From Flavobacterium soyangense (lineage in GTDB: Bacteria > Bacteroidota > Bacteroidia > Flavobacteriales > Flavobacteriaceae), in the NCBI RefSeq assembly GCF_015277675.1, contig NZ_JADHEC010000004.1, positions 62,001-126,000 on the forward strand: 64,000 bases of DNA, written 5' to 3'. Positions within the stretch are counted from its first letter, which is position 1, and every line of letters starts with the position of its first letter. The translations under genes were made by a program, and so were the position numbers. Below are positions 42,942-53,084 of this stretch, piece by piece. A model generated the notes under the pieces. It had not been told where the DNA came from. It worked only from the letters and a program-made list of their open reading frames with translations, and ran no database searches.

Positions 42942-43793
42942 TTAGTAATCGCTTTCGCCTTCAGTATAGTTTTGACCCAAAGCATTTTCGAGTTGTGCAT
43001 CATTTGGTGCTTTTCCGTGCCATGCGTGACTGTACATCATAAAATCTACTCCGTTACCCATTTCTGTATGCAATAAAACACAAACAGGTTTTCCTTTTCC
43101 GGTTCTAGATTTGGCATCAGCCATTCCGGCGATAATCGCTTCAATGTCGTTTCCTTTTTCAATTTCCAAAACATCCCAATCAAATGCTTCGAATTTAGCT
43201 TTCAAACTTCCCATTGCCAAAACTTCGTCCGTTGTTCCGTCAATTTGTTTTCCGTTTACATCGACTGTTGCAATCAGATTATCCACTTTTTTAGCAGAAG
43301 CATACATTATGGCTTCCCAGTTTTGACCTTCCTGCAATTCGCCATCTCCGTGCAAGGTGTAAACCAAATGGTTGTCTTTGTTCAATTTTTTTGCTTGAGC
43401 AGCACCAATGGCAACTGATAATCCTTGTCCCAAAGAACCTGAAGCAATTCTCACACCTGGTAATCCATCGTGAGTTGTTGGGTGACCTTGTAATCTAGAA
43501 TTTATTAGACGGAAAGTAGCTAATTCCGATACTGGAAAATAACCACTTCTTGCCAATACGCTGTAAAAAAGCGGAGAGATATGACCATTAGATAGGAAGA
43601 ATAAATCTTCACCAATTCCATCCATATCAAAACCTGGTTTTCTGTCCATTATGTTTTGGTACAAGGTGACCATAAACTCAGTGCAACCAAGAGAACCTCC
43701 AGGATGACCTGAATTAACAGCGTGAACCATACGAAGAATATCTCTTCTGACTTGGATAGTTAAATCGTTTAATTGTTGTGTGTTAGGCTTCAT
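42942..43793 (-). CDS. Transketolase, N-terminal (thiamine-diphosphate) half
   Basis: 283 residues. AVNSGHPGGSLGCTE is the conserved start region, GSLGQGLSVAIGAAQA the cofactor motif, and GDGELQEGQNWEAIMYA the GDG-x(about 25)-N magnesium/ThDP motif. It pairs with the C-terminal half 87 bases downstream; that short gap has direct repeats of AATCTAAAATCT type and no terminator. Confidence 0.95.
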   Translation of the reverse strand: MKPNTQQLNDLTIQVRRDILRMVHAVNSGHPGGSLGCTEFMVTLYQNIMDRKPGFDMDGIGEDLFFLSNGHISPLFYSVLARSGYFPVSELATFRLINSRLQGHPTTHDGLPGVRIASGSLGQGLSVAIGAAQAKKLNKDNHLVYTLHGDGELQEGQNWEAIMYASAKKVDNLIATVDVNGKQIDGTTDEVLAMGSLKAKFEAFDWDVLEIEKGNDIEAIIAGMADAKSRTGKGKPVCVLLHTEMGNGVDFMMYSHAWHGKAPNDAQLENALGQNYTEGESDY

Positions 43794-43818
43794 TTTATAT
43801 GTAAAAGTTAAACTGTTG

Positions 43819-43849
43819 CAAATGTAATTTTTATTTTGCCGTAAGACAA
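43819..43849 (-). promoter_or_regulatory. Transketolase operon promoter
   Basis: TTG (43847-43849), 20 bases, TACATTTG (43819-43826) on the minus strand: a perfect match, 25 bases before ATG 43793. Confidence 0.8.
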
Positions 43850-43884
43850 ATGATTTTCGGAATAGTTATTATGGGTTATGAGCA

Positions 43885-43912
43885 TAAAAAAAAGTCCTAA
43901 ATAAGGACTTTT
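43885..43912 (-). terminator. Terminator of the rhodanese pair
   Basis: On the minus strand AAAAGTCCT, loop TATTT, AGGACTTTT and further T. It lies 79 bases after the stop of the second rhodanese. Confidence 0.85.
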
Positions 43913-43991
43913 CAATGGGAAAGAGGACATTTAAAAACTATATTTTTGCCTTTTCGAGGGCAGTATATTTTTTATTTAATTTCTTTGTTCG

Positions 43992-44306
43992 TTATAATTT
44001 ACTTTGAAGACTATACCAGCCTCCGCCATTGTATACCTGAGTGAAACCATTAGCCTTTAAAATTCCTTTTGCAGATGCACTTCTCATTCCCGAAGCACAA
44101 CAAGTAATTACGGGTTTATTTTTGTCTTTCAGTTTGTCCAAGTTGTTTCTTAAAGTATCAACTGAAATATTGATAGATCCTTTTATGTGACCGCCGGCAA
44201 ATTCGGCTTTGGAACGAACGTCCAAAATTATTGCCCCATTTTTTACCAATTCGGCATAGTTTACTCCTGATCCAATTCCGAATAATTTTTTTAATGTGTT
44301 GATCAT
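43992..44306 (-). CDS. Rhodanese-domain protein (second of a pair)
   Basis: 104 residues, one rhodanese domain: ILDVRSKAEFAGGHIKGSINI and the active loop CCASGMRS with the catalytic Cys near residue 70, then VYNGGGWYSL. A short hydrophobic N-terminus (NTLKKLFGIGSG) is not a clear signal peptide. It probably carries persulfide sulfur. It follows the other rhodanese after seven bases. Confidence 0.92.
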   Translation of the reverse strand: MINTLKKLFGIGSGVNYAELVKNGAIILDVRSKAEFAGGHIKGSINISVDTLRNNLDKLKDKNKPVITCCASGMRSASAKGILKANGFTQVYNGGGWYSLQSKL

Positions 44307-44313
44307 TTTTTGA

Positions 44314-44598
44314 TTATTTGCTTAAAGATTTATAATAATTTACGTTTAGCCATGAACCGCCATTATAACATTCGATGCCATATTGTGAAAGGAAATGATG
44401 CGCTTGACCACTTCTTCCGCCTGATACACAGCACAATATTAATGGGGCTTTCAGTGCTTTTAATTCTTCTATTCTTTCCGGGATTTCACTCAGGGGAATG
44501 TTGATGGAATTGGCTACATTGCCACCCATAAATTCTCCATAAGTTCGTACATCCACTATTGTACCTAGATTTTCTTTTATTAATTTTTCTATATCCAT
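44314..44598 (-). CDS. Rhodanese-domain protein (first of a pair)
   Basis: 94 residues from ATG 44598; the frame extends to a TTG at 44613, but the ATG fits the domain better. IVDVRTYGEFMGGNVANSINIP and the active loop CCVSGGRSGQA with the catalytic Cys. Two single-domain rhodaneses in tandem may act in sulfur transfer or redox signalling. The upstream region carries three palindromes. Confidence 0.9.
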   Translation of the reverse strand: MDIEKLIKENLGTIVDVRTYGEFMGGNVANSINIPLSEIPERIEELKALKAPLILCCVSGGRSGQAHHFLSQYGIECYNGGSWLNVNYYKSLSK

Positions 44599-44620
44599 TT
44601 TTTCAACTTTCAATTATTTT

Positions 44621-44699
44621 ACACTTTATAAAGTGTCTTCTGCATTATTATAATGCAAAATAAATGCAACGATTATACTTTGATAGTAACTTTAGTTAC
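44621..44699. promoter_or_regulatory. Three palindromes upstream of the rhodanese pair
   Basis: ACACTTTATAAAGTGT (44621-44636) is a perfect 16-bp palindrome. TGCATTATTATAATGCA (44641-44657) is perfect around one central base. GTAACTTTAGTTAC (44686-44699) has 6-bp arms. All lie within 101 bases of ATG 44598. They look like operator sites, for example for a CRP/FNR-type regulator on the last one; no regulator gene is next to them. Confidence 0.5.
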
Positions 44700-44770
44700 A
44701 CAAGTTGAAATTTGTTTTGTTACAATAGAAATGTTTTTACAAAAACAATAAATTTTTTAAGAATATTCAT

Positions 44771-44796
44771 AAAAAAAGCCCGTAAAACAGGCTTTA
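44771..44796 (-). terminator. Terminator of the ferritin-like gene
   Basis: Minus strand AAAGCCTGT, loop, ACGGGCTTTTTTT with one mismatch; 23 bases after the stop. Confidence 0.75.
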
Positions 44797-44818
44797 TTTA
44801 AAACAGTATATAGCGAAA

Positions 44819-45370
44819 TTACCACTCATCATCTAAATCTGCTGCATCAATATTGATGTTTGATAAGGCAATTTTAGTTAAAGCCGCATCTACTTTTTTC
44901 TCTTCGGCTAGTGTCATTGCAATCAATTCTTCTGCTTTTTCTTCTCCAAGTGTTACTGCATAAGCGTGCAAAGTCCCGTAAGTGGCAATTTCATAGTGTT
45001 CAACTTTTTGTGCAGCAGCTATGATTCCTGCATCACGAACATCGCCCAATTCAGTTTCACTCATCATAATTTCACATTCTTTTATCAATCCTTCCATGGC
45101 TTTACATTTTTTTTCATCCGCTTTATTTCCAATGGAATCAAATGTTCTTTCTAAACGTGTTATGTGTTCTTCCGTTTCGGTCAAATGTTTTTTTAAGGCT
45201 CGAATTAGTTCTGGGGAGGAAGCATTTTTTGTCATTTTTTTCAATGCCGGAATCATTGATTTTTCTGCCCAAAACATTTCTTTCAATTCAGCTTCAAATA
45301 AATCTCTTAAACCTTGTGCAGCATTCGATTTTGCTTTTACAATTCCTTGTTTTTTGATAATCGTTTCCAT
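44819..45370 (-). CDS. YciE-like ferritin-like protein (DUF892)
   Basis: 183 residues, all helical. LRDLFEAELKEMFWAEKSMI (about 21-40), HLTETEEHITRLERTF (about 81-96), KVEHYEIATYGTLHAYA (about 127-143) and LAEEKKVDAAL give the Glu/His positions of a ferritin-like diiron bundle. DUF892 proteins are linked to stress in other bacteria. Monocistronic. The 210 bases upstream show no other gene. Confidence 0.92.
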   Translation of the reverse strand: METIIKKQGIVKAKSNAAQGLRDLFEAELKEMFWAEKSMIPALKKMTKNASSPELIRALKKHLTETEEHITRLERTFDSIGNKADEKKCKAMEGLIKECEIMMSETELGDVRDAGIIAAAQKVEHYEIATYGTLHAYAVTLGEEKAEELIAMTLAEEKKVDAALTKIALSNINIDAADLDDEW

Positions 45371-45580
45371 AATAGTTAATTTAAAGATTAATTTTTCTGT
45401 TTGTAATATCGATTAGATACCAAATCTGATTCGGATATTAACGATTTTTAATTTTATAAAATTACCAATATTATTTTTAAATACCTGTTAATTAACTAAT
45501 TATAATTAAGAATTCTTTTAGAAATGAAAAAAATAATTTTTGAATTGTGTTTTTAGATTAATAATTTTCCCTTTTTTGAA

Positions 45581-46750
45581 TTAAAAACTCCATCTGCTTC
45601 TTATAAAAATATTGGTTTCTAAATTTTTATAAGAGTTCGCTTGGTCTGCAAAAAAAGATTGCGCCATAAAATCCAAATCAAAATTTGTTGCAACATTCCA
45701 AGCAAAAGAGGGAATTAGAATCAGTGTATTCTTCACAGGAGAATAAATAAAAGAGAAGTTAAATGAGGAAATAGGTGAGATTGTTTTCAGGGCCATGAAA
45801 TGAAAATTATATTCGAACGGAAAAAGCATTTTGGCAGATACATTAAAGTTATAAATGCCTTTACCAATCATAAAATCATTCGTGTGATTGCTGTTGTAAA
45901 GCATTGTGAGCGCTAGATACCAATCGTTTTTGTAGGTTTGGTCAACCATTAATGACAAGCAGAAATTTTCGGATGAATCCAATGAGTTCTGTTTTGGAAT
46001 AAAATAACTCATCTCCCCTTTAAATCCTGCCTCTTTGATACTTCCTGCCCAACCTCCGCCAACTACAAAATCGGTTTGGTAAATTCCGCTTAAAAGTTGG
46101 AAGTCATACTTTTTTCTATTCCATTTGTAGAGTACCGCCGCAATTTGCTCCTCACTGTTTTTGCTGGCTTTGTAAGCCAATTCGAATGAAGTATTATGCT
46201 GCAAATTATGTTGGATTCTAACAGCATCGCTTCCCGGTCGTTCTTCATAATCGAATTCCAACAGATTAAAGGCATTGAAAAGGTCATTTGGATTCCAGAC
46301 GTTGTTAATTCCCCAATTGATGCGCTGTCTTCCAATAATAACTTCCCATTTTTCATCGGAATATTGCAGCAACATCCGGTCAACTGTCGATTGTGCCACG
46401 AAGGATTTTTCGTTTACCCATAAATGCGAAAGATCAAAAAAGCCGTTATCTTGGTTGATGAGGCCTCCAAAATTTGGTGTTTGTTCTATTTGTTCACCAT
46501 AAAAAATTCGGTTGCGAACTTCTAATCGTCCAGAAAATTTAGGTGCAATATTGAATTTAAAATTCAGCCGATTATGAATAAGATTTGTCGAAGCATTGGA
46601 ATCAATTTTCTGGACGAAAGTCGTGTTTTGAATGTACTTGATATAGCCTTGAAGTTCTACCCACGATGGTTTTGAATCATTGGTTTGAGCATTAATTAGG
46701 ATGCTTGAGAAGGATAAAAATAGTGTGAATATGTATTTAGTATAGTTCAC
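45581..46750 (-). CDS. Outer-membrane beta-barrel protein of an envelope-transport operon
   Basis: 389 residues, signal peptide cleaved after INAQ. Alternating hydrophobic strands and a C-terminal aromatic residue (IRSRWSF) indicate an outer-membrane barrel. GRQRINWGINNVWNPNDLF (about 137-155) and YEERPGSDAVRIQ recall DUF1302-type barrels. It is the last gene of the operon with two FtsX permeases, an ATPase and a LolA-like protein, so it may be the outer-membrane end of that system. Substrate unknown. Confidence 0.75.
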   Translation of the reverse strand: MNYTKYIFTLFLSFSSILINAQTNDSKPSWVELQGYIKYIQNTTFVQKIDSNASTNLIHNRLNFKFNIAPKFSGRLEVRNRIFYGEQIEQTPNFGGLINQDNGFFDLSHLWVNEKSFVAQSTVDRMLLQYSDEKWEVIIGRQRINWGINNVWNPNDLFNAFNLLEFDYEERPGSDAVRIQHNLQHNTSFELAYKASKNSEEQIAAVLYKWNRKKYDFQLLSGIYQTDFVVGGGWAGSIKEAGFKGEMSYFIPKQNSLDSSENFCLSLMVDQTYKNDWYLALTMLYNSNHTNDFMIGKGIYNFNVSAKMLFPFEYNFHFMALKTISPISSFNFSFIYSPVKNTLILIPSFAWNVATNFDLDFMAQSFFADQANSYKNLETNIFIRSRWSF

Positions 46751-46773
46751 GATTTATTCTTAAAATAGTATGG

Positions 46774-47481
46774 TTATATATGCTCGACAGTCGTTGGTGC
46801 AGTATCGGAAACAATTTTCCCGTCTTCGAGCGTGATGACTCTTCGGGCGCGGTTGATAACTCTTTGATCGTGAGTCGAAAAAACGAAAGTCATATTTTCT
46901 TCCTGATTGAGTTTTAGCATCATATCCAATAAATTTTCAGCCGAAACCGAATCAAGATTTGCTGTAGGCTCGTCGGCCAAAATAAACTGCGGCTTTGGTG
47001 CCAATGCTCTTGCCACGGCCACTCTTTGTTGCTGACCACCCGATAATTCTCTGGGTCTTTTATTGATTTTATCTTCCATTCCAATTTGTTTCAGCAATTC
47101 TAAAACCCGTTGTTCTCTCTCTTTTTCAGGTCTTTTCTGCAAAAGCATTATGAATTCAATATTTTCCTTGGCGGTAAGCACCGGAATTAAATTGTAGGAT
47201 TGAAACACAAACCCAATGTTATTCAATCGGAAATCTACCAATTCATTGCCTTTCAAAGCGGTAATATTGGTTCCGTTAATCTCGACAAAACCTTCGGAAG
47301 GAATATCCAAACCACCAAGCATATTCAGCAAAGTCGTTTTTCCGGAGCCCGAAGGTCCTTTGATGGCCGTGAATTCTCCCCGTGAAATATGCAGGTGAAC
47401 CTTGTTTAACGCATAAACTGGAATGGTTTTTTCATCGTATATTTTCGATAAATTGTGCGCATCAATTACTGTTTCTCTCAT
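46774..47481 (-). CDS. LolD/MacB-type ABC transporter ATPase
   Basis: 235 residues from ATG 47481; a 40-residue extension in frame would overlap the permease gene. Walker A GPSGSGKTT, Q-loop FVFQSYNLIPVLTA, signature LSGGQQQR, Walker B FILADEPT, switch FSTHD. This group energises FtsX-type permeases for lipoprotein or macrolide/lipid movement in the periplasm. It sits five bases after the permease. Confidence 0.95.
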   Translation of the reverse strand: MRETVIDAHNLSKIYDEKTIPVYALNKVHLHISRGEFTAIKGPSGSGKTTLLNMLGGLDIPSEGFVEINGTNITALKGNELVDFRLNNIGFVFQSYNLIPVLTAKENIEFIMLLQKRPEKEREQRVLELLKQIGMEDKINKRPRELSGGQQQRVAVARALAPKPQFILADEPTANLDSVSAENLLDMMLKLNQEENMTFVFSTHDQRVINRARRVITLEDGKIVSDTAPTTVEHI

Positions 47482-47486
47482 CGCAA

Positions 47487-48704
47487 TTATTTTTTTAAGG
47501 ATTCGGCGGGTTTTAATTTCAAGGCTCTTTTTGCAGGAAATAAGGCCGAAAAGAGCGCAGTCAGTATTATTAAAATCACAATATTTCCAAATTGGTTCCA
47601 AGTCAAAGTAGGATAAATAATGGAGCTGTATCCAAAGCTGGAATACACTTCCGAAAATTCGCTAAAGTTGATTCCTGTTTGATTTGTTATTCCAATAGTG
47701 GCAAAGGCAAGTAAAATTCCTATTGGGCAGCCGGCAAGAATCAGGAAAAAAGTTTCTAGAATAATCATCATAAAAATTTTGAACTTATTCATTCCCAAAG
47801 CAAGCAGCATTCCAATTTCTCGTGTTCTTTCCAAAACCGACATCATCATCGTGTTGACTATCCCAAAAGCCAAGGCAAGCAAAATAATTCCCATAAAAAT
47901 ATAAACCATTTGGTCTCCAACAGAAACCGTTAATCCAAGTTCTGGCGAAATTTCCATCCAGTTTTTGATTTCTGATTTAGGAAATTGTTGGGACAAGTTT
48001 TTTTGAATTTCTAGTACAGATTTACTCGAATGTAGCAAGACTGCAATTTCATTGATGGCTTTCGGAATTCCGGCTAGCGAATCCACATCGGTGATTTTCA
48101 CAAAAACATTGGCATCATCATAAGGACCGTTTATGGTTTTGTAAATGGCACAAATCCGGAACGCAGCCGATGCGAGATTGCCCTCTCTATCCTGAAAAGT
48201 CAGAATAGTTTTCTTGTTTAAATTGAGTTTTAGTTTCTTGCGGAGCTTTTCGCTGATGAGTATTTCATTCTCTTTTTTTGGATTAAAATAACTCCCTTTT
48301 ATTATTTTTCCTTTGAGGTTGGTTAGCAATTGTTCTTCGGCTGGCATCACTCCGTTTATAGTTATTCCGCTGCTTCCCGAGGCTGATGCTATCATTCCCT
48401 TGATAATAACTCGCCCGGCTACAGCTTTTATTTCTTGCTTATTGGCAATTTTTTCAAGCATTTTCCTGCCTTCGGGCAAATAATATTTTATTTCATAATC
48501 CTTTCTGAACTCGGGATGATGCAACTGAATATGGGATAATTCACTGCTAATAGCTGAATTGATGCGTTGTTCAATCATTCCGTTATAAAAAGCCATCATA
48601 AAAATTCCGGTCCATAATCCAATGCTTACCGCTGTGATGATAATGAGGCTTCTTTTTCTGCTCCTCCAGATGTTTCTGCTCGCTATTTTGGTCAACATTT
48701 TCAT
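47487..48704 (-). CDS. FtsX/LolE-type ABC permease
   Basis: 405 residues: an N-terminal helix (about 18-40), a periplasmic MacB_PCD-like domain (about 45-260), then three helices (about 265-295, 315-345, 370-390) with VLERTREIGMLLALGMNK, the FtsX cytoplasmic loop. The tail SLKK is typical. It likely forms a heterodimer with the next permease. Confidence 0.92.
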   Translation of the reverse strand: MKMLTKIASRNIWRSRKRSLIIITAVSIGLWTGIFMMAFYNGMIEQRINSAISSELSHIQLHHPEFRKDYEIKYYLPEGRKMLEKIANKQEIKAVAGRVIIKGMIASASGSSGITINGVMPAEEQLLTNLKGKIIKGSYFNPKKENEILISEKLRKKLKLNLNKKTILTFQDREGNLASAAFRICAIYKTINGPYDDANVFVKITDVDSLAGIPKAINEIAVLLHSSKSVLEIQKNLSQQFPKSEIKNWMEISPELGLTVSVGDQMVYIFMGIILLALAFGIVNTMMMSVLERTREIGMLLALGMNKFKIFMMIILETFFLILAGCPIGILLAFATIGITNQTGINFSEFSEVYSSFGYSSIIYPTLTWNQFGNIVILIILTALFSALFPAKRALKLKPAESLKK

Positions 48705-48711
48705 TTTACTT

Positions 48712-49926
48712 TTATTTTTTCATTGCATTAACAGGATTTAAACTACTCACAAACCACAATGGATACAAGCCAATAAGAGTTGCCATAAATAAAACAATCA
48801 ACGATTGGGTAAAAAATATACGCAAATCAAATTCAGCCGGGAATAAGGCTTCGAAGCCAAATTGCTCGTACGCTTTTGCAATTTCACCGCTAAAACGGAT
48901 TGGTTTTTCCTGTAAATAAATCACTGATGGCATACTGAGCAGTATTCCTAAAACAACGCCAAGCAGCGTAATCAGAAAGGTTTCGCCCAAAAGAATCATT
49001 TTTAATTTGCTTTTTTTCATTCCAATGGCGATGAGCATTCCAAATTCATACATCCGTTCGACGGTCATCATTAAAATGGTTCCAAAAAGTCCAAAACCGA
49101 TGATGAGATACAATATTCCCGAAAAAATGTAAAATGAAAAACCATCTGCTTTGATGTGGTTCGAGATTTCGGGCATCATTTCCTGCCAAGGCATTACTTC
49201 GTAATTTTTTCCAATCGATGGCTGCAGGTTTTGGACAATGGCATTCATTCTTTCTGGATTGTCAATTCCCAAAGACAAGGAAGTGAGCCTATTTTCGGCA
49301 CTCAAATAATATTGAGTTGCTGACAATGGCAAATAGACAAAAGCATCATTCATTTGTGGCGAAGCCAGATGCACAATGCCTTTTATCTTGAATTTCCCCG
49401 CAGCCATTACACCGTGATACCCTTGACCAAACAATACAATGGTGTCGTTTACAGAAGCATTAATCCTTTTTGCCAGACCTTCTGCAAGAATCACAACCTC
49501 TTCCCTATTTTGAAAATAAGCCCCTTTTATGATTTTGTTTTTTAGTTGTGTCAACTCATTTTCCTTTACGGCATCTGTGCCCACGAGCATACATCCTTTG
49601 GTTGAATTTCCTTTTGAAATCAGGACAAAAGTTTCCAATCTAGGAACGATTACATTTATTTGGGGATTTTGTTTGAGTTTTTTAATTAGGGAATTATCCA
49701 AAGCAAAGCAATTGTCGAGCACTTGTTCGTCCCAATATCCTTTTTGATGTATTTGGACATAACCCGAATAATAACCCACGACGTTTTTGATTAAATTGTT
49801 GAAAACGCCATTCTGGAATGATTTCATTATAATGGCAAACAAAACGGCAAACGCAATCGAAGCCATTGTGATTAGCGTTCGGCGGCTGTTGCGCCAAAGG
49901 TTTCTCCAGATTAGTTTCAGTATCAT
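48712..49926 (-). CDS. FtsX/LolC-type ABC permease
   Basis: 404 residues with the same layout as its neighbour: helix 1 at about 17-38, periplasmic domain to about 265, helices at about 270-295, 315-340 and 370-392, with MTVERMYEFGMLIAIGMKKSK. Four bases overlap the LolA-like gene and seven separate it from the second permease, so the products are coupled. Confidence 0.92.
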   Translation of the reverse strand: MILKLIWRNLWRNSRRTLITMASIAFAVLFAIIMKSFQNGVFNNLIKNVVGYYSGYVQIHQKGYWDEQVLDNCFALDNSLIKKLKQNPQINVIVPRLETFVLISKGNSTKGCMLVGTDAVKENELTQLKNKIIKGAYFQNREEVVILAEGLAKRINASVNDTIVLFGQGYHGVMAAGKFKIKGIVHLASPQMNDAFVYLPLSATQYYLSAENRLTSLSLGIDNPERMNAIVQNLQPSIGKNYEVMPWQEMMPEISNHIKADGFSFYIFSGILYLIIGFGLFGTILMMTVERMYEFGMLIAIGMKKSKLKMILLGETFLITLLGVVLGILLSMPSVIYLQEKPIRFSGEIAKAYEQFGFEALFPAEFDLRIFFTQSLIVLFMATLIGLYPLWFVSSLNPVNAMKK

Positions 49927-50669
49927 TTTACTCTGGTGATGTTTTGGGTCGTGAAAAACAAATCCTCTATTGGAGTGTCAAAAACAATCGAATTGTAGAT
50001 TAATACGGTTTTGTTCCCTTTTTTGTTGGCAGGAACCATTTCCATTTTTCCGGGCAATAATCGTCCGCCAAACATTTTTATGTCACTACAATTCATGGTG
50101 TTTATCAACACTTTGTCTTCGTCAAAATACTCAACGTGAAGCATCATAAAATCCTTTTTGTCAATCGCCATAATGACTTTTCCCCAGACGACTGCTGATT
50201 TTGGTTTTGGTATCAACTGAATTTTATAGCATTCCCTTCCATCAATAACGACTTCTTCTAAAAACGAATGATTGTAATCTTCCAGAATGGAGGCTTCTTT
50301 GACCAAATCATCATTGGTAAAATCAGTTCCCATCCAGCTTTGGCTCATCATCGATGGTGGCATTTTGATGTTCCGTTCAATGGAGGGAATCCAGTTCCAG
50401 ACTTCTTTGTTTCTTTTTAAAAAGACCACTCCTTTTTCTTTGGCCGGAGCCAAAACCAATGCTAAACTCAGATTATTGCCCTTTGTCCAGCTTTTTACTG
50501 TCATTTCCCGAGACCAAGTGGGACGAATGATTTGAATGGTGATGTTGGCAATTGAGGTTTTACCTTTTGCCTTTTCGTCAGCTTTTTTTACAATGTCTTT
50601 TGCGTCTTGGCCAAAGGCTGAAAGGATAAACAGTAAATGAAAAAACAGAAGAAATAGCGTCTTTTTCAT
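49923..50669 (-). CDS. LolA-like outer-membrane lipoprotein-sorting protein
   Basis: 248 residues, signal peptide ending SAFG. The fold pattern (ITIQIIRPTWSREMTVKSWTKG at about 43-64, KEVWNWIPSIERNIKMPPSMM, DYNHSFLEE, YKIQLIPKPKSAVVWGKV) matches LolA-like periplasmic carriers annotated as lipoprotein-sorting proteins. Such proteins are often encoded with lipid-type transporters. As first gene of this operon it may carry a lipid or lipoprotein from the FtsX complex across the periplasm. Confidence 0.85.
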   Translation of the reverse strand: MKKTLFLLFFHLLFILSAFGQDAKDIVKKADEKAKGKTSIANITIQIIRPTWSREMTVKSWTKGNNLSLALVLAPAKEKGVVFLKRNKEVWNWIPSIERNIKMPPSMMSQSWMGTDFTNDDLVKEASILEDYNHSFLEEVVIDGRECYKIQLIPKPKSAVVWGKVIMAIDKKDFMMLHVEYFDEDKVLINTMNCSDIKMFGGRLLPGKMEMVPANKKGNKTVLIYNSIVFDTPIEDLFFTTQNITRVK

Positions 50670-50712
50670 AACTAACTTTTTTAAAGGTAAAAATGCTAGA
50701 TTGTCACTCTCT

Positions 50713-50743
50713 CAAAGGTAATTATATATCCAATAAAACACAA
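50713..50743 (-). promoter_or_regulatory. Promoter of the LolA/FtsX operon
   Basis: TTG (50741-50743), 20 bases, TACCTTTG (50713-50720) on the minus strand: a perfect match, 44 bases before ATG 50669. Confidence 0.8.
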
Positions 50744-50816
50744 CCAAAAGCAGCATTTATTTGTTAATAAATACTGATTTACAGTTTGTTACGATGCGCT
50801 TCTGTTTTGAATTTTT

Positions 50817-51392
50817 TTATTTTCGAGTAATAGATAAAATTAATATTTCAGGTTTGAAATATTGTTCCTGTTCCGGATGAAGTTGTTGAATTTTTTTGAC
50901 CACATCCATTCCTTTGGTAACTTTTCCGAAAGCGGCAAAACCTTGTCCGTCTTTGTTTCTTTTGCCTCCAAAATCTAAAGAAGGTTGGTCATTGATGCAA
51001 ATAAAAAAACTGCAAGTAGCCGAATCGGGTATGTCTCTCGCCATAGAAATCGCTCCGTTTTTATGAAGAACTCCTGTTTTTGAAGTTCTTTCGAGTGGAA
51101 TCGCTGCAAAGACTTTTGTAGAATCGACTTCACCTCCTTGAATCACCTCAATTTTTACAGAATCTTTAGCCTGATTGTTTAAAGTTACCGAACGAAAAAA
51201 AGTCGTGCTGTCATACAAATGGGCATCGACATATTTCAAAAAATTGGCTACAGTAATGGGAGCTTTTTTTGGATATAATTCGACGGTAATGTCGCCCAAA
51301 GATGTTTTAATGATACAAGTTTCCTTTTTTTGTGCGGAAGCATTCGTGATTGTAAAAAGTAAAACTATTAATGTTAGGAAGAATTTTTTCAT
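50817..51392 (-). CDS. Secreted cyclophilin-type peptidyl-prolyl isomerase
   Basis: 191 residues with a signal peptide (NASAQ). Cyclophilin core: ITVANFLKYVD, TTFFRSV (the catalytic Arg), IQGGEVDSTK, GAISMARDIPDSATCSFFICINDQPSLD and FAAFGKVTKGMDVV. The usual FHRVI/GF motif is changed to FFRSVTL, as in many Bacteroidota members. It begins 14 bases after the VOC gene, so the two are probably cotranscribed. Confidence 0.92.
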   Translation of the reverse strand: MKKFFLTLIVLLFTITNASAQKKETCIIKTSLGDITVELYPKKAPITVANFLKYVDAHLYDSTTFFRSVTLNNQAKDSVKIEVIQGGEVDSTKVFAAIPLERTSKTGVLHKNGAISMARDIPDSATCSFFICINDQPSLDFGGKRNKDGQGFAAFGKVTKGMDVVKKIQQLHPEQEQYFKPEILILSITRK

Positions 51393-51406
51393 CGTTTTGT
51401 CAGCTA

Positions 51407-51763
51407 TTAGATACTTTGCCCGAAAGTGAGCAAGTTGTTGTCTGGGTCAAGAACTGAAAATTCCTTTTGTCCCCAAGGTTTTATTTCTAATTGCCCATTG
51501 GGATGGATGCTTGTTTTATTGTCCAATACCGTTTGGTAAAAGTTGTCAATATCATTTGTTCTGATATAAACTTGTCCGTAGTTTTCTTTTGGATCCAGCG
51601 TTTTGAACTCAAAAAAATGAATTTGAATGCTTTCTTTTTGCATCATTAAATAGCCATCATAGTCAGCATTTCCAAAATCTTGAAAGCCTAGCTTGTCACT
51701 ATAAAAGTTTCTTGTTGCCTTTTTGTCGCGCATTGGTAACTTTGGATGAATGGCTGTAAGCAT
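51407..51763 (-). CDS. Glyoxalase/bleomycin-resistance (VOC) family protein
   Basis: 118 residues from ATG 51763. One VOC unit pair: HPKLPMRDKKATRNFYSDKLGFQDFG, IHFFEFKTLDPKENYGQVYIR, and PWGQKEFSVLDPDNNLLTFGQ at the end. It resembles BLMA-type binding proteins. The frame can start at 51820, but the extra 19 residues come from a repeat that matches the end of the upstream sulfurtransferase gene, so I used the inner ATG. Confidence 0.88.
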   Translation of the reverse strand: MLTAIHPKLPMRDKKATRNFYSDKLGFQDFGNADYDGYLMMQKESIQIHFFEFKTLDPKENYGQVYIRTNDIDNFYQTVLDNKTSIHPNGQLEIKPWGQKEFSVLDPDNNLLTFGQSI

Positions 51764-51789
51764 TTTTATTGCTGTTTTTGTTGTATGTA

Positions 51790-51836
51790 ATTGAAGAGTT
51801 GGAGTGGGCACGGATTGCAAATCCGCGCTATCGGGG
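51790..51836. repeat. REP-like palindrome, possibly a copy of the sulfurtransferase 3' end
   Basis: GCACGGATTGCAAATCCGCGC (about 51808-51828) is a near-perfect palindrome with G-T-tolerant arms. About 48 bases around it match, at roughly four in five positions, the stretch at 51905-51952 inside the end of the sulfurtransferase gene, in the same orientation. It is either a local duplication or a REP-type element. Confidence 0.55.
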
Positions 51837-51870
51837 TAAGCATATTTGATGAATTGAATTTTTATTTCAG

Positions 51871-52791
51871 TTATTGTTTTTTATTTGTTTTTGTAACAAT
51901 TAATAATTGAGGAGTTAGAGCGGGCATTGACTGCAAATCCGTTCTATTGGCATGTATTGCTTTATTATTTCTACTCCATTCACTCCAAGAACCAACATAT
52001 AGTTTTGGAATTTCCAAGCCAGCATATGCGATTGCTAAAAGGGAATGACAAGCTGTAACGCCCGAACCGCAATGAACAATTATATTTTCGGCTTCAACAT
52101 TTCCAAATATCTTTTCATACTTCTCTTTTAGCAAATTCGGAGATAAAAACAGTCCGTTTTCGTCTAAATTTTCAGTAAAAGGGACATTTATTGCCCCTGG
52201 GATATGTCCTGCAATTAAATCAATTGGTTCAATTTCGCCATTATATCGCTCAGCGTCACGAACATCAATTACAATATGATTTTCGTTTTGTGAAACTTTT
52301 TCAACTTCTTCAATTTCGGCAATTTTTAATTTCCAATTAGTAACTTTATATGTTTCGGTTTTATTAATAATTTCTGTTTTTGAACTGATTGGAAAGTTAT
52401 TCTTTTCAGCTTCTTGAATTCCACCATTAAGAACTTGGACTTTTTCATGACCGATAGATTTCAACATCCACCAAAATCTTGCCGATGCATTTGAGCCATT
52501 TTTGTCATCATAAATTATGATGTGACTTTTTGGTGAAATTCCAAGATTTGATACTGTTTTTGCAAAATTTTCAATTTTCGGTAACGGATGCCTTCCGCCA
52601 ATTGACAAATCATCATTAATTTCGGCAAGTTGCGTGTTCAAATCTATAAATATTGCCCCTTCTAAATGTTTTGCTTCATAATTTAATTTCGCGTTTTTTC
52701 CATTACTAACATCTACAATAATTAAGTTTTCAGATTTATATAATGTCAGCAATTCTTGTGCTTGAATAATTGGAGAAATATTTATAGTCAT
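51871..52791 (-). CDS. Thiosulfate/3-mercaptopyruvate sulfurtransferase
   Basis: 306 residues with two rhodanese domains. The N-terminal, inactive one (about 10-135) has VDVSNGKN, HLEGAIFIDL, GRHPLP and YDDKNGSNASARFWWML. The C-terminal active one (about 160-290) has VIDVRDAERYNGEIEPIDLIAGHIPGAINVP-type residues and HCGSGVTACHSLLA with the catalytic Cys. The CGSGVTA loop is usual for mercaptopyruvate sulfurtransferases. Probably cytoplasmic. Confidence 0.92.
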   Translation of the reverse strand: MTINISPIIQAQELLTLYKSENLIIVDVSNGKNAKLNYEAKHLEGAIFIDLNTQLAEINDDLSIGGRHPLPKIENFAKTVSNLGISPKSHIIIYDDKNGSNASARFWWMLKSIGHEKVQVLNGGIQEAEKNNFPISSKTEIINKTETYKVTNWKLKIAEIEEVEKVSQNENHIVIDVRDAERYNGEIEPIDLIAGHIPGAINVPFTENLDENGLFLSPNLLKEKYEKIFGNVEAENIIVHCGSGVTACHSLLAIAYAGLEIPKLYVGSWSEWSRNNKAIHANRTDLQSMPALTPQLLIVTKTNKKQ

Positions 52792-52861
52792 TTTTTTTAT
52801 TTTATATTTAAATGAAAATGTATCATTTTTTACAAATTATTGAGTGAGTTTTTTTCTTATT

Positions 52862-53084
52862 CCATTTAATCTTTGAATTTACTGGAATATTGTTGTTTTA
52901 ATTGCCGTTGACTTTAGTCAACGGAATTTATAGTAAATATTGAATTGGCTTTAGCCAAAACAGTTATGCAATTTTGGCTAAAACCAATAAATGCAGCTTC
53001 TAAAAGACCTTTGGCTAAAGCCAAAGGCAATTGAATCCAAAAGAATTGACTCTCTTTATAATAGTGTTTTCAAAGATTAAATGG
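52862..53084. repeat. Nested inverted-repeat element (MITE/REP-like)
   Basis: Outer arms: a perfect 16-bp inverted repeat CCATTTAATCTTTGAA at 52862-52877 and its complement at 53069-53084. Inner arms: AATTGCC at 52900 and GGCAATT ending at 53032. Each inner end holds a hairpin (CCGTTGACTTTAGTCAACGG at 52904-52923; CTTTGGCTAAAGCCAAAG at 53009-53026), and TTGGCTTTAGCCAA lies between. It fills most of the 309-base gap, with no ORF inside. It looks like a mobile, non-coding repeat; no clear target duplication is seen. Confidence 0.65.

Follow-up and report, generated by a model that had tools for sequence, protein, structure and literature searches.

We describe here a candidate envelope transport operon in a 64,000-nucleotide stretch of DNA from Flavobacterium soyangense (contig NZ_JADHEC010000004.1, positions 62,001 to 126,000), the whole of which is called the window below. 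Five consecutive open reading frames (ORFs) were found on the minus strand from 50669 to 45581 in the order carrier, FtsX2, FtsX1, ATPase and barrel, with a 4-base overlap between the first two genes and gaps of 7, 5 and 23 bases thereafter. The first gene (49923..50669) encodes a LolA-like periplasmic carrier of family PF17131. It is followed by two permeases, FtsX2 (48712..49926) and FtsX1 (47487..48704), by an ATPase of the LolD/FtsE/MacB type (46774..47481), for which an ATG start was picked by us, and by a predicted outer-membrane beta-barrel (45581..46750) starting with GTG. All parts except the barrel were identified by Pfam. The five tightly spaced genes of the original prediction were thus confirmed on a single strand, and its claim that they supply parts for every layer of the envelope is supported. 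Neither a membrane-fusion protein nor TolC was found among the five operon proteins (Pfam) or the six flanking ones, and none of the five operon genes encodes a LolB receptor.

The carrier scored 181.8 bits against PF17131 (E 1.4e-53), where the gathering cut-off is 30, and its N-terminus was read by eye as a signal sequence with no lipobox cysteine. The structure model of the carrier, with a predicted local distance difference test (pLDDT) value of 81, gave template modelling (TM) scores of 0.69-0.78 to Porphyromonas gingivalis LolA3 (9tp6), to 3bk5 and 3buu and to the DUF1329 protein 4z48; in the 50 matches listed, classic LolA scored 0.38-0.45. Going by their structure titles, we take 9tp6, 3bk5, 3buu and 4z48 to be PF17131/DUF1329 members. 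A profile search of PDB sequences at E 0.01 returned the same four entries; classic LolA was not among these matches, nor was its family, PF03548, among the Pfam matches of the carrier. The carrier also stayed below the NCBIfam cut-offs for LolA1_Flavo (16 bits vs 100) and LolA3 (23 vs 83). These comparisons support a predicted fold closest to those of PF17131/DUF1329, nearer than to classic LolA. Residues ~89-127 form the stretch densest in invariant positions and hold the sole low-confidence loop of the model, 105-124, which may be a lid or a docking site. In the genome of this strain no second PF17131 gene was found at E 0.001, and another contig carries a match to LolA (PF03548) that scores close to the cut-off.

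FtsX and MacB_PCD domains were identified by Pfam in both permeases, and among solved proteins both matched LolF and LolE best and MacB more poorly. With 124 and about 106-107 bits they fell short of the LolCE cut-off (TIGR02212, 362 bits); two permeases encoded elsewhere in the same genome scored higher, at 171 and 170 bits, also under 362. The best NCBIfam match of the ATPase (ABC_tran E 9e-35) was LolD (TIGR02211), at 231 bits and below the cut-off of 308. The matches of permeases and ATPase to Lol components could be explained by a second, specialised Lol route, in which the ATP-binding cassette (ABC) pump would hand certain lipoproteins over to the PF17131 carrier, with the barrel replacing LolB or aiding surface exposure, and alternative lipoprotein routes are indeed suggested for Bacteroidota (PMC11885536). 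We consider this unlikely, given that fold scores set the carrier well apart from classic LolA, that it stays below both LolA cut-offs, that related partners sit beside MMPL pumps, and that the distribution is patchy (52 of 295 class genomes). The LolA match and the higher-scoring LolC/E candidates elsewhere in the genome speak against the operon being the general lipoprotein route, and the fold match LolA3 of P. gingivalis is reported to bind LolB weakly (PMC13103446).

The barrel protein has 389 residues, with a signal-like N-terminus and a C-terminal Phe as read by eye. It had no match in Pfam, even with E values as high as 1 allowed, in NCBIfam or among PDB sequences. A profile of its family was therefore compared with a DUF1302 (PF06980) profile made from eight DUF1302 proteins of the same phylum, and control barrel families were taken from the same class. 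The comparison with DUF1302 gave 99.58% (E 7.7e-24) over 323 columns, against 35.6% over 40 columns for Porin_O_P, 20% over 68 for FadL and 0.9% at most in 20 runs with column-shuffled control profiles. DUF1302 was matched directly by 10 of 33 family members with E limited to 0.01 and, at the looser limit of 1, by 3 of 14, the best of these at 3.8e-6. Profile comparison with controls and these direct matches support the proposed likeness, that is, a barrel related to DUF1302 at the profile level and past generic barrel likeness.

The gene order recurs across many Bacteroidota, and of the 54 distinct loci studied in long form 49 keep it in full (55 long loci, including L056, a duplicate of L008). 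Among carrier-found loci in named genomes, the whole set lay in the same order and strand in 13 of 18, and the other five (L003, L010, L015, L017 and L019) are on contigs ending inside the operon. The barrel search gave matches in 52 of 295 class genomes including that of the window, from 36 of 155 genera, and 51 of these 52 genomes have a single copy. In short loci (n = 30, the one from the window included) the ATPase gene adjoined that of the barrel in all 30 and FtsX1 was present in 29, the last being cut by a contig end. In long loci around barrel matches (40 fetched out of 53 matches), FtsX2, FtsX1, ATPase and barrel were ordered in this way in 40 of 40, with the carrier upstream too in 35. 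Of the five loci lacking an adjoining carrier, L093 lies at a contig start and L084, L087, L089 and L090 belong to a single genus. The 49 loci with the full order include one from Persicobacter sp. (L023) and one from Vibrio campbellii, in which it lies on a 2-Mb replicon (L021). Within Flavobacterium itself the distribution is patchy, PF17131 being present in the phylum survey in the genome of the window and in G221 and not in 16 other genomes of the genus. Loss of the barrel and LolA-like genes from the operon in relatives, named beforehand as the finding that would refute the proposed system, was not seen save for the unlinked carrier of the one genus.

Some loci carry additional genes. An extra FtsX2-type permease gene stands beside the usual pair in L078, L080, L082, L083 and L088, and small ORFs lie between operon genes in L018, L080, L081 and L088, with one in each of the five gaps of L080. 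By eye the latter resemble four-helix-bundle, GxxExxY and DUF559 insert proteins. L003 and L010 are contigs of a metagenome-assembled genome titled Klebsiella pneumoniae, and their operon copies are Flavobacterium-like (carrier identity 95% and 85%), so that the label or the bin is probably wrong.

The original prediction also held that known analogues combine resistance-nodulation-division (RND)/MMPL pumps with a LolA-like carrier and a barrel, and that an ABC pair takes the place of the pump here. PF17131 was found in 103 of 296 phylum genomes; the survey rows were hand-counted as 134, and every second one was fetched, giving 67 loci. Two permeases of the ABC kind with ATPase and barrel were present in 36 of these loci, one permease with ATPase and barrel in 7, MMPL with barrel in 6, and MMPL at a contig edge in 1. 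One of the 36, L137, is rearranged and has its barrel at just 17 bits; of the remaining loci, L120 has ABC genes and a barrel with the pump broken or miscalled, L149 is cut and L161 has no carrier call. To count as a barrel here, a protein had to exceed 15 bits against at least one of four profiles. Two of these profiles are partly self-scoring, having been built from L156, L157, L159 and L160 and from DUF1302 rows of the L096-L098 genomes. The barrel of the L096 MMPL operon is DUF1302 above the cut-off, those of L096-L098 are profile-related to the window barrel, and that of L140 reached 99.4% against the window barrel family. In addition, DUF1302 was found in 9 of 292 phylum genomes, 7 of which encode it immediately next to PF17131. 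Both claims are supported by these MMPL loci of the same phylum, where the pump stands beside a PF17131 carrier and a mostly related barrel.

A quick tree of the carriers (n = 78) was calculated from a set that took in 13 two-permease long loci and the window and left out L117 and L152 (contig edges) and L161 (no match), with proteins >330 residues cut to the last 270. It required 4 changes of pump label, compared with a minimum of 3 and a shuffled mean of 23.8. Two-permease rows formed one group in 51 of 53 cases (98), and one-permease rows formed another (97); L137 and L144 fell outside the two-permease group. The MMPL rows did not form one group, stand-alone carriers being interspersed among them, and the placement of six long-branch rows is unsure. 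Recent repeated swapping of pumps is unsupported, as the pump labels cluster in the tree. The grouping of carriers by pump type rather suggests an old split, in which ABC and RND pumps may have joined one carrier-barrel module long ago and the carrier was kept pump-specific.

Three side observations were made. Ten stand-alone PF17131 genes (L141-L143, L145, L147, L148, L150, L151, L153 and L154) make up one group in the carrier tree. In two MMPL operons a secreted-looking ORF of ~189 residues, by eye perhaps thioredoxin-like, lies between MMPL and carrier (L096:6766-7335 and L098:8280-8846). On a plasmid of Enterobacter bugandensis (L025), ketosynthase and malonyltransferase genes flank a related set that consists of an ABC ATPase, one permease, a carrier of the PF17131 type and a protein of 462 residues with no Pfam match, and these flanks hint that this set possibly exports a polyketide-type lipid.

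The Bacteroidota promoter consensus, TTTG-N24-TACCTTTG, is matched exactly at 50713..50748 on the minus strand, and to this extent the proposed perfect promoter stood. The count of such matches in the window was no better than chance (10 vs 9.25 expected), and ~50 bases around the site were conserved in 2 of 10 aligned relatives, namely L003 and L006, the remaining eight showing no such block. A sigma-70 scan of 43500-53000 gave no site at this place, with 33 sites vs 32.7 expected. The window operon is flanked on one side by genes for a cyclophilin, a glyoxalase-like protein and a rhodanese and on the other by genes for DUF892 and two rhodaneses; no regulator, TetR included, and no transporter was found among these six. 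Across the 54 distinct loci, 24 ORFs lying immediately before the carrier gene were scanned and TetR_N was identified in 21, hence in 21 of the 54 (the 24 being 25 listed minus the L056 duplicate and L081, whose frame had been misread, plus L064). Clustering of 535 neighbour ORFs from the 54 loci placed a TetR cluster in 20 loci, with no member beside the nine named Flavobacterium copies. In the 67-locus survey, at a loose threshold, 17 of the 36 two-permease loci had a TetR within 6.5 kb, as did 5 of the 7 MMPL loci, the operons L096-L098 and L140 among them; none of the 7 one-permease loci did. In P. gingivalis and Prevotella, operons of TetR, MMPL and "lipoprotein-sorting" genes are reported to be strongly up when iron or hemin is scarce (PMC10434189, PMC10470040).

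A TetR-type regulator upstream in 21 of 54 loci fits control by a small molecule, and the operon could serve mainly to expel foreign hydrophobic toxicants, which TetR would sense. The lack of recurring biosynthesis neighbours, judged by eye, and the precedent of the AmeABCD exporter (PMC6394551) argue in the same direction. We nevertheless hold this to be improbable, as the six genes flanking the window operon, the nine named Flavobacterium copies and all seven one-permease loci were without TetR in the searches given above.

On balance we favour, with moderate confidence, an ATP-driven exporter whose cargo, a small lipid or another hydrophobe that partitions into membranes, is brought to the outer membrane. 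The class of cargo, the direction, the hand-off to the shuttle and the role of the barrel are what we infer. The two LolC/E-like permeases and the ATPase would pull the cargo out of the inner membrane from its outer leaflet, and the PF17131 carrier would take it into its groove and cross the periplasm as a soluble shuttle, the operon encoding neither a membrane-fusion protein nor TolC. The DUF1302-like barrel would then receive the cargo and place it in the outer membrane or pass it through. Such an exporter would operate in the manner of AmeABCD-type RND/DUF1329/DUF1302 exporters, except that its pump is ABC and not RND. A bolder version, which we put forward tentatively as possible rather than probable, is a dedicated surface-lipid export machine of Bacteroidota, in which an ABC extractor, its own soluble carrier and a DUF1302-type outlet would bring a lipid across the outer membrane in parallel to Lol, Lpt and Mla, having derived from an ancestral carrier-barrel pair used elsewhere with RND pumps.

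Several observations weigh against the proposed lipid exporter. LolF and LolE, the nearest solved relatives of the permeases, are lipoprotein releasers, which leaves room for a lipoprotein cargo. The window barrel did not itself match DUF1302 directly, and DUF1302 compared with Porin_O_P, taken as an unrelated family, gave 74% over 94 columns; weak matches to other barrel families were obtained for Wzi (4 of 33 members) and MtrB_PioB (1 of 33). Structure prediction, put forward earlier as a check of the DUF1302 likeness, returned a low-confidence model (pLDDT 64) that looks like a barrel and whose fold matches are porins in general, and so it adds little past the word barrel. The barrels of the MMPL operons L121 and L133 reached 70% and 49% against the window barrel family, and one-permease barrels 95% (four together), 77%, 52% and 0.1%. 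In the 67-locus survey, the profile used for one-permease barrels was built from 4 of the 7 loci, with L146, L155 and L158 outside it, so that the survey scores of these barrels are partly circular. Of the 67 PF17131 genes, 13 are stand-alone (two at contig edges), and one ABC set has no barrel (L144). In the genus represented by L084, L087, L089 and L090 the carrier is unlinked from the rest of the operon; it was found elsewhere, at 314-330 bits to the family profile, in 3 of 4 genomes, the fourth genome being 74% complete. Mirror-tree correlations of 0.78-0.87, calculated on 44 loci with clean single ORFs, carry no correction for the species tree. Finally, apart from TetR no neighbour family, as named by eye, occurred in >8 of the 54 loci, and the neighbours therefore point to no cargo.

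The same parts could also work in the reverse direction, in uptake or retrograde lipid traffic, with the barrel admitting a hydrophobe or removing stray lipid, the carrier moving inward and the ABC pump re-inserting the cargo, as in the Mla-like direction. LolCDE and MacB work outward, and no MCE or substrate-binding domain was found by Pfam in the five operon proteins, so we regard this as quite improbable. It draws on Thalassolituus, where an MMPL protein, a LolA-like protein and a neighbouring porin-like protein are reported to be up on a long-chain alkane and the authors propose passage of the alkane through the porin (PMC6304351).

An ATP-driven exporter of this kind would bear on how lipids other than lipopolysaccharide and lipoproteins reach the outer membrane, in Bacteroidota especially. 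Tying ABC and RND pumps to one carrier-barrel module would ease work on the DUF1302 and DUF1329/PF17131 families, and the compact operon, a single copy per genome in nearly all barrel-bearing class genomes, makes a directly testable set.

Among known systems, MacAB-TolC shares the FtsX/MacB_PCD permease domains. The window operon differs from it in having no MacA adaptor or TolC and in its ATPase, which is a separate protein; in MacB the ATPase is fused to the permease. With the Lol system (LolCDE-LolA-LolB) it has in common the permease and ATPase families and the logic of a soluble carrier, but its carrier belongs to another subfamily, its permeases are under the LolCE cut-off, LolB is missing and a DUF1302-like barrel is added. 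In the open-licence literature no paper was recognised as describing a system of ABC pump, PF17131 carrier and DUF1302-type barrel. The closest published ABC case is Borrelia BBJ23-29, a cluster of a LolCDE-kind ABC transporter (MacB/LolE-like BBJ26-27), a LolA-like carrier (BBJ28) and an outer-membrane barrel (BBJ25), proposed to export a non-polar ligand; it differs in its Omp85 barrel, homodimeric permease and two tetratricopeptide repeat (TPR) proteins (PMC13078400). The Bacteroidota MMPL operons (L096-L098, L121, L133 and L140) share a PF17131 carrier and a barrel with the window operon and differ in the MMPL pump and in carriers lying outside the two-permease tree group. The PG1178-81 region of P. 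gingivalis is perhaps a similar MMPL set, going by its published annotation (PMC10434189). AmeABCD of Castellaniella defragrans is reported to consist of the HAE3-type RND pump AmeD, the DUF1302 barrel AmeA, the DUF1329 protein AmeB and AmeC, and its deletion lowered monoterpene tolerance and raised Nile Red accumulation (PMC6394551). At the level of profiles and folds, a DUF1302-type barrel, a LolA-superfamily carrier and an inner-membrane pump are likewise encoded together in the window. The reported system differs in that its pump is RND and not ABC, in an extra COG4447 protein, and in a barrel of 605 residues where that of the window has 389 and is a DUF1302 relative at the profile level only. 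By this analogy, the operon is most likely an ATP-driven counterpart of the AmeABCD-type exporters.

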